From Truepera radiovictrix DSM 17093 (GTDB lineage Bacteria; Deinococcota; Deinococci; Deinococcales; Trueperaceae): a DNA stretch of 64,000 nt. The notes under the pieces are model-generated. The model saw only the letters and a list, made by a program, of their open reading frames with translations. It made no database searches and was not told the origin of the DNA. The DNA lies in the NCBI RefSeq assembly GCF_000092425.1, contig NC_014221.1, positions 2,299,001 through 2,363,000 of the forward strand, in the 5' to 3' direction. Positions within the stretch are counted from its first letter, which is position 1, and every line of letters starts with the position of its first letter. Position numbers and translations under genes: made by a program. Shown here in pieces: positions 20,583 through 24,585 of the stretch.

Positions 20583-23132
20583 TTACTGCGTAGCCAGCAT
20601 CAAGACCATGGCAGCCGGCAGTACGGTCTTGCGAGGCGCATTCATATGGTGTGCCTCTGTAAGGGCGTACGTCCTTATAGTAGCGTCTAGTAGCTTACCC
20701 GTACCGTCCCAAGGCCCGGTTACGTAGTAAGGCCAACCGGCGAACTGCGACCGCGTCCCCCGCGTCGTCGCTCGCGCCTGCAACCCGCCCCGGTCGCTAC
20801 TGCCACAGATCGTCGGGGCGTAGGAGTTGACGTCGTCGTCCATGACGAAGCTCGTAAAACCGTTCGAGACCTTGCTCATAAAACCGTGATCGGCGAAGAC
20901 GCTAAATTCTTCGAGCGCCAGGTCCTGGAACGCCTGCATGGTGTGGCGCAGGTAAACGAACATCTGGCACCCCATGTTGCTGTAGCGCCTCACGTCGCTG
21001 ATGCGGTGATCCCAGATGAACGCGGGGCCGGCGGGGCTGTCGACCTCGATCATGTGGTTGGCGACGTTGTTCGCCATGCGCCGCGCTTCGCTGAGGTACC
21101 TGCCATCGCCCGTCAGCTTGTTCATGTAGTAGTGGTAGCGGATCCACTGTGAGTAGGCGTGGGTGAGCTCTTTGGTGATAAAGGGAAAGCCCGTGGGCCG
21201 GTTTTTCCGCTGGCGCCACTTCGCCTCGAAATGGTTTTGCAGGTAGTCGGTCCAAAAGGCCGCTCGCTCGGCGTAACGGGGATCAGCGGCATTCTGCTGA
21301 AAGACGTAGGCAGCAGCCGCCACGAGCGAGTGCGTGAGGATCTCGTCCATCTCGTGGTAGTCGTCGCCGATGAAAGGGGCACCACTAGGTTCGGTAAGTG
21401 TTAAATAGCGCCAGTTCAGGTACCCATCGCCGTTATAGTCCCGCAGATCGGCGCGGGTCAGCTGCATGAGGCGGTCGATCTCGTCGAGGAGCTGAGGGTC
21501 GCGCGTGATGCGGAAGACGGTGATCAGAGTGGTGACGTGAGTATTCAGCGAGCGGCCAATTAAGAAGAGGTCGCCGCTCGAGGCCCACCTAGAGGGGTCA
21601 CTACCAGCTAATGCGGAGTGGGTGTGGTACTTGGGATGCTCAATGGCACTCATCAAGCGGTCGTACCAGAGTCGCACCTCCGCGGCGAGTTGGTTGCGGC
21701 TGAAGTTCGGGTTGGCGCGGAGCGTGGTGTAAGAACCGCGCGGGCGCTTGCTGCCGGGTGCTGGAGCCGGTTCGGGTTGCGGCGCTGGAGGGGTGGGTTC
21801 GGGCGTAGGTTGCGGCGCCGGCGGGGTCGGTGCAGGAGCTGGGGTGGGGTCGGGCGAAGGCGCTGGGGCTGGCGGCGGAGGCGTGGGCGCTGGCGCGGCA
21901 GCCATCTCGTAAGTGATCGTGAGCCTCGGCCCGTCAGTGGCGCTCACGTCTCGCGAAACCGCCGAGCGCTTCGTCCGACCATCGCCGGAGATCACGAACG
22001 CCATGGCGTTGCCACTTCGCCAATTGGGTCGGTTGACGATCTCCTGCACGATCGCCGAGAGGTCGGCTGTACGCACCGCCTGGCCGACCTCCCAAGGACG
22101 CGGACGCCACAGGGCCGCAGCCGTCGTCGTGGGTCTTTGGCTCAGGTTGCGGTTCGCCGTCGTAAACCTCGGGGTGTTGTCGGCGCTGATGCCACGGACC
22201 GTCAGGGTCAGGCTACCGCTGTCCGCCGCGGAAGCTTTGAAGTCGATGTGAGCACCCGTAATGCGCGCGCCGCGGGGTACGGTGACGTTGGTAAAGCGCA
22301 GACCGACGCTCTGCGCCACCCCGCCTTCGACAGAAAAGTCGAGCGAGCGGGTGCTCGCCCCCGTGCGGATGGTACCAGTCGCCGTCTCCTCGATGTCGTC
22401 CTCGGGGCTCGCGAGCGGCAGCCTCACCGAGCCACCTGTCTGGGGGGTGGGGGTAGCCGGTGACGTTACAGGAGCCGAAGCCTGCGCGGGTTCAAAACTC
22501 ACGACGAGCACAGGAACGTTCGCAGGGTTTCCGCCGAAGGCGATCGCTGCACGCTCCCCGCGCCCGTCGCCGGTTACGATCAGCGCGAGCGCGTTGCCGC
22601 TGCGCCAACCGCTGCGGCTGACGACCTCTTGAATGACGTCCTTGAGCTCGGAGCTGCGCCCCCAGCGGCCTTGGGTCCACGCCACCGGACGCCACGTCGC
22701 GACCGCCGCGGTCGTCGGCCGCGAGCTGATATTGTGGCGCGCGCTCGTGAATGTGGGCGCGTTGTCGGCGGCTTGGGCGCGCACCTGTAACGTCACGGGG
22801 CTCGAGTGCGCGAGCCCCGCACGCACCTCGAGGTGTGCCGAGGTGATCCTAGCGCCTCTTGGGATCGCGAGGTTTTGAAACCGCAACCCGACGATCTGCG
22901 GCACCCCTTGCTTGGCCGAAAAGTCGAGCAGGCCGCCATCGAGCTCCATCCGGCCACCCGTAACCTCTTCGGCATCGTCAGACGCAGCCACAATGGGGAT
23001 ACGTACGGTCGTCGGGGCTGAAAGGGGCTCGAAAGCAGGTAAGGCGTCGTCGATACCGCGGCTGCACGCGCTGAGTAGGAGCAACCCGAGCAGCGCCAAG
23101 AACAGAGGACTCCTGCGGACGGATGCGTTCAT
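20583..23132 (-). CDS. large secreted lipoprotein: two repeated beta modules plus helical toroid (lyase/hydrolase-like) domain
   Basis: 849 residues. A lipoprotein signal (LLLLSAC, about Cys23) anchors it outside the cell. Residues about 45-220 and 245-415 are two copies of one module, each with GLRFxNxxxPRGARIT.AH, ADNxPxFTxAxxNxSxRPTT, a WRP..W stretch, WRSGNA and GDGR. They resemble the DNRLRE-type beta-sandwich modules of secreted enzymes. A Pro/Ala linker (about 420-475) leads to a C-terminal domain of about 370 residues rich in paired helices, with WYDRLM, DLRDYNGDGYLNWRYLT, DDYHEMDEILTHS and YSQWIRYHYYMNKLTGD. This suggests an alpha/alpha toroid as in [14 protein letters not shown] lyases and related hydrolases. 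Function is inferred from architecture only. GGAGGAG fixes the ATG at 23132. A sulfotransferase gene is divergent. Confidence 0.75.
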   Translation of the reverse strand: MNASVRRSPLFLALLGLLLLSACSRGIDDALPAFEPLSAPTTVRIPIVAASDDAEEVTGGRMELDGGLLDFSAKQGVPQIVGLRFQNLAIPRGARITSAHLEVRAGLAHSSPVTLQVRAQAADNAPTFTSARHNISSRPTTAAVATWRPVAWTQGRWGRSSELKDVIQEVVSRSGWRSGNALALIVTGDGRGERAAIAFGGNPANVPVLVVSFEPAQASAPVTSPATPTPQTGGSVRLPLASPEDDIEETATGTIRTGASTRSLDFSVEGGVAQSVGLRFTNVTVPRGARITGAHIDFKASAADSGSLTLTVRGISADNTPRFTTANRNLSQRPTTTAAALWRPRPWEVGQAVRTADLSAIVQEIVNRPNWRSGNAMAFVISGDGRTKRSAVSRDVSATDGPRLTITYEMAAAPAPTPPPPAPAPSPDPTPAPAPTPPAPQPTPEPTPPAPQPEPAPAPGSKRPRGSYTTLRANPNFSRNQLAAEVRLWYDRLMSAIEHPKYHTHSALAGSDPSRWASSGDLFLIGRSLNTHVTTLITVFRITRDPQLLDEIDRLMQLTRADLRDYNGDGYLNWRYLTLTEPSGAPFIGDDYHEMDEILTHSLVAAAAYVFQQNAADPRYAERAAFWTDYLQNHFEAKWRQRKNRPTGFPFITKELTHAYSQWIRYHYYMNKLTGDGRYLSEARRMANNVANHMIEVDSPAGPAFIWDHRISDVRRYSNMGCQMFVYLRHTMQAFQDLALEEFSVFADHGFMSKVSNGFTSFVMDDDVNSYAPTICGSSDRGGLQARATTRGTRSQFAGWPYYVTGPWDGTGKLLDATIRTYALTEAHHMNAPRKTVLPAAMVLMLATQ

Positions 23133-23565
23133 CTTCTCCTCCACCCCGTGGATTTGGTGTCGCGTCGCAGCTAGAGCTCCGGAGCCTGGGGAAGCTCACG
23201 GATCCAAACCGGGTACACGGCGACCGGTTTGGTCCATCTGCTCGGCGTTGCAGCACATTTGAGGTGGAGCGCGGCAGCTCCCCTCGGCCGGTTGCGCTAC
23301 TGGCTCGACCCGCTCCCAAGCGCCCATATACAGGAAACGGGTGTCAAAGCCTCCGAGGGGCGGGGTAACCCCTCAACGGAGAGAAGCTTAGCCCGCGCCA
23401 GATGAAGGGAGTGTGAAAAGTTTTTAATTTTTGCGGATGTGCGAGACTTAACGTTAAACCTCGCGGAGCCCTCCTGCGCGTTTTGTCAACGGGTGGCTCC
23501 GAGACCGTCAACCACACCGCCACGTCACCGCAAGCTGAGCGCAAACGCTGCCGCTAACCTGAGCC
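23133..23565. other. 433 bp divergent intergenic region with structured leader and AT-rich core
   Basis: Lies between the minus-strand lipoprotein gene and the plus-strand sulfotransferase gene. On the lipoprotein side it has an inverted repeat CCAAACCGG (23204-23212) / CCGGTTTGG (23224-23232), GCTCCGGAGC near 23177, and nested arms around AGGGG/CCCCT near 23360. Near 23410-23460 the DNA turns AT-rich, with the palindrome TTAACGTTAA at 23449-23458, a likely promoter/operator zone. No known riboswitch consensus was recognised. Confidence 0.5.
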
Positions 23566-24585
23566 ATGGAAGGAAGCTTCGCCGCCACCTCGCACCCGCT
23601 TCCGGTGCAACGCGCCGCGCGCTCACGCTTTCGCGGAGCCCGCGCGAGCCACCGGCCTAGCGGGCAGCCCGACGTTTTTCTCCTCGCAACTCCCGGCAGC
23701 GGCTCGAGCTGGCTCACGAAGCTGATCGAGCGTCAGCCGGGGTTTCGGTGTGTCGACGACCCCTTCTGTCACGCCAACGCGTCTTTGCACACCGCTCTGG
23801 GTGCGACCACGACCGAGACGTTTGGTGGCGACACGACAGGGTCACTCGAGCGCTACTTCCGCAACCTCTGCCAGAGCACCATGCCACAGGGGGGACCTGC
23901 CCCCCGCCGCCCCTTTTTCCGCCGCACAACCCACCGCACGGTGCTCCGCATCGTTCGTCGCAGCGAGAGCGTCGTGAGCTGGTTGATGGTGCACGCGAAC
24001 GAACGCTTGGGGGGACGGAGCCTCCTGTTGGTGCGCCACCCCATCGCCGCGAGCCTTACGCAACGGCTCTCCCCACACCTTGAGATGCTCTTACAGCGTC
24101 AGCACCGCTACCTTAGCGAGGCGCAGCGGCGCGAAGGGGCACGTATCGTAGCGTGCGGGTCGGACCTCGAGCGCGGCGTGCTCGCTTGGTGTCTTTACAA
24201 CCTGCGCGCTCTGGGGTCCCGCTCCCCCCACTGGAACGTTCTCAGCTACGAGCAGCTCCTTTTAGAACCCGAACGCTCGGCGCTCTACCTCGCTGATTGC
24301 CTCGCCCTGCCCGATACGGCTCGGCTCCTAAAGCAGCTAGGGCGCAGTCGCAAACGCCCTGGCTCCGGCTTAGAGCGGCAGATCGACGGGTGGCGCGAGC
24401 GGGTACCCGCGACTCAAGAGCGGCAGCTCATGGGGCTCCTCGAGCTGTTTGCGCTCGGGGCGTATAGGACGGGTGACCCACTGCCCGCACCCGACCTCTG
24501 GCTCTCGGCGCCGCACGCTGCGCAACCGCTCCCTAGGCACAGACCTGGGGGTCTATCTACATGGACACTGTCCGTTTACGGCTAA
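23566..24585 (+). CDS. PAPS-dependent sulfotransferase family protein
   Basis: 339 residues. Sulfotransferases move sulfate from PAPS to hydroxyl or amino groups of glycans, lipids or small molecules. The 5'-phosphosulfate loop ATPGSGSSWLTKLI (residues 41-54) and the 3'-phosphate motif LLLVRHPIAASLTQRLS with Arg157 and Ser163 are both present; SYEQLLLEP later in the chain is another common segment. The N-terminal 35 residues are basic and low in structure. No signal peptide, so action is cytoplasmic, on a precursor. It is divergent from the secreted lipoprotein gene 433 bases away, hinting at sulfated glycan metabolism, but there is no direct proof. Codon use is somewhat less GC3-biased than in its neighbours. 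Confidence 0.82.
   Translation: MEGSFAATSHPLPVQRAARSRFRGARASHRPSGQPDVFLLATPGSGSSWLTKLIERQPGFRCVDDPFCHANASLHTALGATTTETFGGDTTGSLERYFRNLCQSTMPQGGPAPRRPFFRRTTHRTVLRIVRRSESVVSWLMVHANERLGGRSLLLVRHPIAASLTQRLSPHLEMLLQRQHRYLSEAQRREGARIVACGSDLERGVLAWCLYNLRALGSRSPHWNVLSYEQLLLEPERSALYLADCLALPDTARLLKQLGRSRKRPGSGLERQIDGWRERVPATQERQLMGLLELFALGAYRTGDPLPAPDLWLSAPHAAQPLPRHRPGGLSTWTLSVYG

Follow-up and report, generated by a model that had tools for sequence, protein, structure and literature searches.

EPS (exopolysaccharide) loci encode glycan hydrolases and lyases, such as those of the AlgL, PelA and PslG type. Regarding carbohydrate-binding modules (CBMs), CBM96 is a DNRLRE-type module that binds alginate, and DNRLRE has also been noted in disaggregatase (PMC9971899). 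Here, we analyze two divergent genes of Truepera radiovictrix DSM 17093, located in a window of 64,000 nucleotides (contig NC_014221.1, positions 2,299,001 to 2,363,000, forward strand; coordinates below are those of the window). P0001 encodes a lipoprotein made of two β modules and an (α/α) toroid, and P0002 a sulfotransferase of the 3'-phosphoadenosine-5'-phosphosulfate (PAPS) type. On balance, we favour P0001 being a surface-anchored enzyme of an undescribed α/α-toroid family, which would cleave or trim an acidic EPS bearing uronate and/or sulfate. As in the AlgL, PelA and PslG type, relatives of this putative secreted glycan enzyme are encoded within EPS synthesis clusters, but the toroid family has no detectable sequence relation to these proteins, is lipid-anchored, and has multiplied outside such clusters in Truepera.

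Domain organization of P0001

The P0001 open reading frame (ORF) comprises 849 residues from the ATG at 23132, or 853 if read from an upstream GTG, and is organized as follows:

20583-23132, minus strand: P0001, 849-residue lipoprotein gene, an ORF with homologues
23064-23132, minus strand: signal peptide with lipobox LLSAC and Cys23 (residues 1-23), read from the sequence; the lipobox also occurs in most relatives
22479-23015, minus strand: β module 1, CBM96/DNRLRE-like (residues 40-218), from a sub-cut-off NCBIfam DNRLRE match and a structure model
21897-22469, minus strand: β module 2 (residues 222-412), 45% identical to module 1
21759-21896, minus strand: Pro/Ala-rich linker (residues 413-458), read from the sequence
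20586-21758, minus strand: C-terminal (α/α) toroid domain (residues 459-849), from AF2, Foldseek and family alignments
21342-21440, minus strand: conserved loop plus the beginning of inner helix 4, with the pattern DxNxDGxxNW...GDDxHxMDE (residues 565-597), from family alignments; D569 is invariant and D591 near-invariant

A preliminary description, made from the sequence alone, had reported a minus-strand lipoprotein and a divergent plus-strand ORF, and their coordinates and sizes proved correct. Both have homologues with conserved motifs, and are therefore not chance ORFs. The β modules are real repeats, since they are 45% identical and the words GARIT, ADN-P-FT, RPTT, WRSGNA and GDGR occur once in each, in agreement with the two-copy module first described.

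The AlphaFold model of module 1 (pLDDT 93) has as its nearest PDB structure the chondroitin-sulfate-binding module of a chondroitinase (8wab, E 2e-7, TM 0.67), followed by an alginate-binding CBM (7vbo, E 1.7e-6, TM 0.56) and then by BMP9 prodomains. The comparison with 7vbo identifies a CBM96 β-sandwich fold. While the fold is alike, sequence identity is 14-16% and scores stay under the curated cut-offs: module 1 matches NCBIfam DNRLRE (NF033679) with an E of 2e-4 and 21.4 bits for a cut-off of 34, this model matches 4 of 12 aligned modules, and Pfam CBM96 (PF24517) returns a weak match in one of the 12 (E 0.026, below the curated cut-off). We conclude from the model that both modules are β-sandwiches of the CBM96/CBM100 type, CBM100 being what we take to be the name of the 8wab family, which may bind alginate or another acidic glycan. 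The fold neighbourhood reported for CBM96 is the same as that of the P0001 module (PMC9971899). Elsewhere in the T. radiovictrix genome (L029:6000-7787 and L030:7588-9237), this N-terminal module recurs in fusions with a nucleoside-hydrolase-like domain and with a possible β-helix domain, and another genome, G012, contains many such modules and no toroid.

The toroid domain and its conserved residues

The AF2 model of the toroid domain (pLDDT 92.3, pTM 0.92) exhibits 12 main helices. Foldseek analysis returns GH76 first, then GH105, GH127 and AGE/YihS, and all 50 of the PDB matches listed are α/α-barrel carbohydrate enzymes. The layout first proposed, binding modules followed by an α/α toroid, is thus borne out by fold prediction (pLDDT 92) and structure search. 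The best fold match, the GH76 endo-α-1,6-mannanases, shares the toroid and a similar length (Foldseek E 5e-4, probability 1.0), but the TM-score to the query is modest (~0.4) and the catalytic Asp pair is not aligned. Membership of GH76 was rejected by profile-profile comparison with fetched family sequences, as hhalign gave a probability of 25%, a register shift of one hairpin and an unaligned Asp-Asp pair; the Pfam GH76 model gave a chance-level hit in one toroid member only (E 0.69). The unsaturated glucuronyl hydrolases GH105/GH88 also share the α/α barrel (ulvan GH105 4ce7, TM 0.47-0.53), and membership was rejected in the same way, with a probability of 1% in a weak test comprising three template sequences.

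None of 25 members, nor their consensus, matches a Pfam family, and the whole P0001 protein searched against NCBIfam gave no family match to the toroid. PDB sequences were not matched by phmmer or hmmsearch with the protein, profile or consensus, and a viral fold library returned nothing. The family is therefore unnamed in the libraries searched. The layout had been called typical of secreted lyases and of the archaeal disaggregatases; the Pfam and NCBIfam scans gave no match to a disaggregatase model, and membership of a known lyase family was not found. Methanosarcina disaggregatase resembles P0001 in being a secreted surface protein that carries modules of the DNRLRE type, and differs in that no disaggregatase Pfam model was matched.

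The C-terminal domain contains the sequences YNGDGYLNW and DDYHEMDEILTHS. In 17 diverse members, a phage copy included, R69, D111, H143, K180, H200 and Y269 are invariant (domain numbering, to which 458 is added for P0001 numbering). D133 (D591 in the protein) is near-invariant and is replaced by Glu in the phage copy. These six polar residues stay invariant down to 28% identity. Judging from the order of secondary structures, consecutive inner helices would have R69, D111/D133, H200 and Y269 at or close to their N-terminal ends, which is where the crater of toroid enzymes lies. Candidate crater residues are R527, D569, H601, H658 and Y727, plus D591. Regarding the Asn/His-Tyr-Arg set of toroid lyases, the family has an invariant R, two invariant H and an invariant Y, and no Pfam lyase match.

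Distribution and genomic neighbourhoods

The toroid family comprises about 30 sequences, mostly lipoproteins. Of 111 Deinococcota genomes, 11 contain it, every one of them from Trueperaceae, with six copies in T. radiovictrix (G000) and seven in a second Truepera genome (G037). Outside Deinococcota, one contig scan found it in a Desulfuromonas, in a near-identical contig binned as Desulfobulbaceae and in a Gemmatimonadaceae metagenome-assembled genome (MAG) contig, and it also occurs in one phage; plasmids and INPHARED phages returned no match. The MAG copy, which is followed by GT2-Wzy-GT4, groups inside the Trueperaceae sequences in the tree, and may be mis-binned or transferred. In T. radiovictrix, three copies located far apart in the genome (L025, L026 and L027) appear from the tree to be recent duplications with very similar sequences, and a divergent copy (L028:7284-8768) stands head-to-head with an apparent PilM-PilN-PilO-PilP-PilQ type IV pilus operon.

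The neighbourhoods of 12 toroid loci were read in nine Trueperaceae genomes outside Truepera. By inspection, 11 of them lie among EPS genes, encoding glycosyltransferases (GTs) of families GT2 and GT4, Wzy, an ABC flippase, Wzz, UDP-glucose dehydrogenase, epimerases, DegT aminotransferases and NeuB/NeuA-like proteins of the nonulosonate type, and Pfam confirmed a sample of these assignments. Independently of this reading by eye, a PF00534 (GT1) match occurs at most 5 kb from 7 of the 12 loci, versus 0.33 expected; the 12 loci are related by ancestry, so that the P value (~6e-9) overstates their independence, while the contrast remains large. Besides this common ancestry, several observations weigh against an enzyme acting on the cells' own EPS. 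The Truepera copies are scattered in the genome, and a GT1 was found within 15 kb of 0 of 12 toroid loci in both Truepera genomes taken together, so that the EPS link comes from the relatives only; the surface-glycan connection first proposed is supported through relatives inside EPS clusters. In addition, the TM-scores of the toroid to PDB structures, normalized to the query, are modest (0.36-0.49), and the sequence of the domain matches none of the known enzyme families in the libraries searched.

The phage copy is carried by a 53.8-kb IMG/VR contig, where the toroid (31% identity) forms the C-terminus of a 1374-residue protein (L136:2055-6179). This protein starts with DUF4874/DUF4832, continues with a DUF1565/β-helix-like middle part and an FN3-like stretch, and ends with the toroid. 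Its gene is located 2.3 kb downstream of a baseplate wedge gene and upstream of collagen-like tail fibre genes. Such a tail-region setting, as for tail depolymerases, independently supports a role in acting on glycans. The resemblance to these depolymerases is that the phage copy forms the C-terminal domain of a β-helix-containing tail-region protein; the difference is that the toroid, whose activity is putative, is an added domain there.

The sulfotransferase P0002 and putative glycan sulfation

The divergent gene and its motifs are located as follows:

23133-23565, no strand: 433-bp divergent intergenic gap between the starts of P0001 and P0002
23566-24585, plus strand: P0002, 339-residue divergent PAPS-type sulfotransferase, from weak Pfam Sulfotransfer_1, hhalign and hidden Markov model (HMM) matches
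23686-23715, plus strand: 5'-phosphosulfate-binding-like motif ATPGSGSSWL (residues 41-50), aligned to sulfotransferases
24016-24054, plus strand: 3'-phosphate-binding-like motif RSLLLVRHPIAAS (residues 151-163), aligned to sulfotransferases

The gap had been called a shared regulatory region of 433 bp. Its size is as described, but no sigma-70 promoter-like site was found within it, and it is therefore described here as a divergent intergenic gap. P0002 matches PF00685 (Sulfotransfer_1) under the cut-off (E 0.11) and was not recovered by the PF13469 scan. Profile comparison with a Trueperaceae sulfotransferase alignment is stronger (hhalign probability 89%; E 6.6e-4 to the HMM of the same alignment), and the 5'-phosphosulfate- and 3'-phosphate-binding motifs occur in the expected order, supporting the initial assignment to a PAPS-type sulfotransferase, albeit a divergent one. 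Its sole relative found, in G037, has the vWA and AAA gene neighbours that P0002 has in the window and is cut by the contig end; none was found in viral contigs.

Other sulfotransferases number ~7 in G000 and ~11 in G037, versus 0-4 in the other Trueperaceae examined; in G018 there are zero PF13469 sulfotransferase matches and zero APS kinase matches. Both Truepera genomes conserve a row of genes in which a Wzx-like flippase is followed by three sulfotransferases and then by a GT4 (L112:9193-14829 in G000; L117:8059-13838 in G037). T. radiovictrix also possesses genes for PAPS supply (sat, cysC and a cysQ-type gene), beside glycosyltransferases in a sat-cysC-cysQ-like-GT4-GT operon (L132:10128-15419; G000:C1 ~795-800 kb). 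In G010, a cysD-cysNC-Wzx-sulfotransferase-Wzy-pyruvyl transferase-GT cluster with APS kinase (L125:1238-11487) is a candidate locus for a sulfated and pyruvylated EPS. Gene content thus offers good evidence for putative glycan sulfation in Trueperaceae, none of it specific to the P0001/P0002 pair, and P0002 itself probably sulfates a surface glycan, independently of P0001. In a paper on Deinococcus EPS, sulfation appears only in a cited title (PMC9549790), and no publication combining sulfotransferase, EPS and Deinococcota was found in the literature library searched.

Proposed role and alternatives

We infer catalysis, the substrate and an action on the cell's own EPS from the features above. 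The lipid anchor would keep P0001 on the cell and the two CBM96/CBM100-like β modules would bind the polymer, while the reaction, by a hydrolase or a lyase mechanism, would take place in the toroid crater. The target would be an acidic, probably uronate- and/or sulfate-bearing extracellular glycan that Trueperaceae make themselves.

The Truepera copies might instead be secreted to feed the cell, by degrading foreign acidic or sulfated glycans of algae, plants or other bacteria; the copies that relatives have in EPS clusters would then represent a different branch of the family. The scatter of the Truepera copies, most with binding modules and none near a GT1, would fit, as would the location of most of them in Truepera-only branches of the tree and the lone secreted copy of Desulfuromonas, which carries a Calx-beta domain and has no glycan cluster. 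However, an uptake or catabolic sugar operon was not seen as immediate neighbour of the window copy, and most relatives outside Truepera adjoin EPS synthesis genes, not catabolic loci. We regard such foraging as unlikely.

It is rather improbable that the toroid is non-catalytic and serves as a binding, anchoring or export-coupling domain retaining EPS on the surface. The lipid anchor, the binding modules and the presence in EPS clusters fit this role equally, and no known catalytic motif was matched, but invariance of polar residues down to 28% identity and into the phage exceeds the usual need of fold maintenance, and use in a phage tail-region protein fits depolymerization.

The preliminary description saw in P0001 and P0002 a dedicated two-gene system working on one sulfated glycan, a view to which we give little credence. 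The genes are divergent neighbours, the best fold match of the module is a chondroitin-sulfate-binding CBM, and one EPS cluster of G011 contains both two toroid copies and three sulfotransferases, though not as a pair. Yet the gene pair, sought in 39 Trueperaceae genomes, was found in T. radiovictrix alone, and the toroid is retained in nine further genomes of Trueperaceae that lack P0002. No other toroid copy directly adjoins a sulfotransferase, including in G037, where the P0002 ortholog is cut by the contig end, and the idea of two genes acting on one glycan is left unsupported.

AGE enzymes work on monomers in the cytosol, and EPS clusters often carry modifying enzymes. A sugar-modifying activity on the polymer, of the epimerase or isomerase type found in AGE-fold or C5-epimerase toroids, is very improbable, since P0001, unlike AGE enzymes, is a lipoprotein with CBM-like modules, even though, among the fold matches, YihS/AGE structures reach some of the highest TM-scores to the query (0.42-0.49).

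Returning to an enzyme acting on the cell's own EPS, we tentatively envisage a new family of carbohydrate-active enzymes (CAZymes) for an acidic, partly sulfated Trueperaceae EPS, encoded with the polymer machinery and acquired by a phage, which would use it as a depolymerase domain of its tail. In that case, Trueperaceae would make sulfated EPS. With six to seven copies per Truepera genome, the toroid family is a concrete candidate for such a family, with a substrate class named. The three sulfation clusters (sat-cysC-cysQ-GT, Wzx/three-sulfotransferase/GT and cysD-cysNC-Wzx-sulfotransferase-Wzy) make sulfated glycans in Deinococcota directly testable. It may be speculated that a sulfated or uronate-rich EPS has a bearing on how T. 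radiovictrix tolerates alkali, salt and radiation. Lastly, a small ORF downstream of P0001 (20000-20374, minus strand) reads like an L-rhamnose mutarotase.

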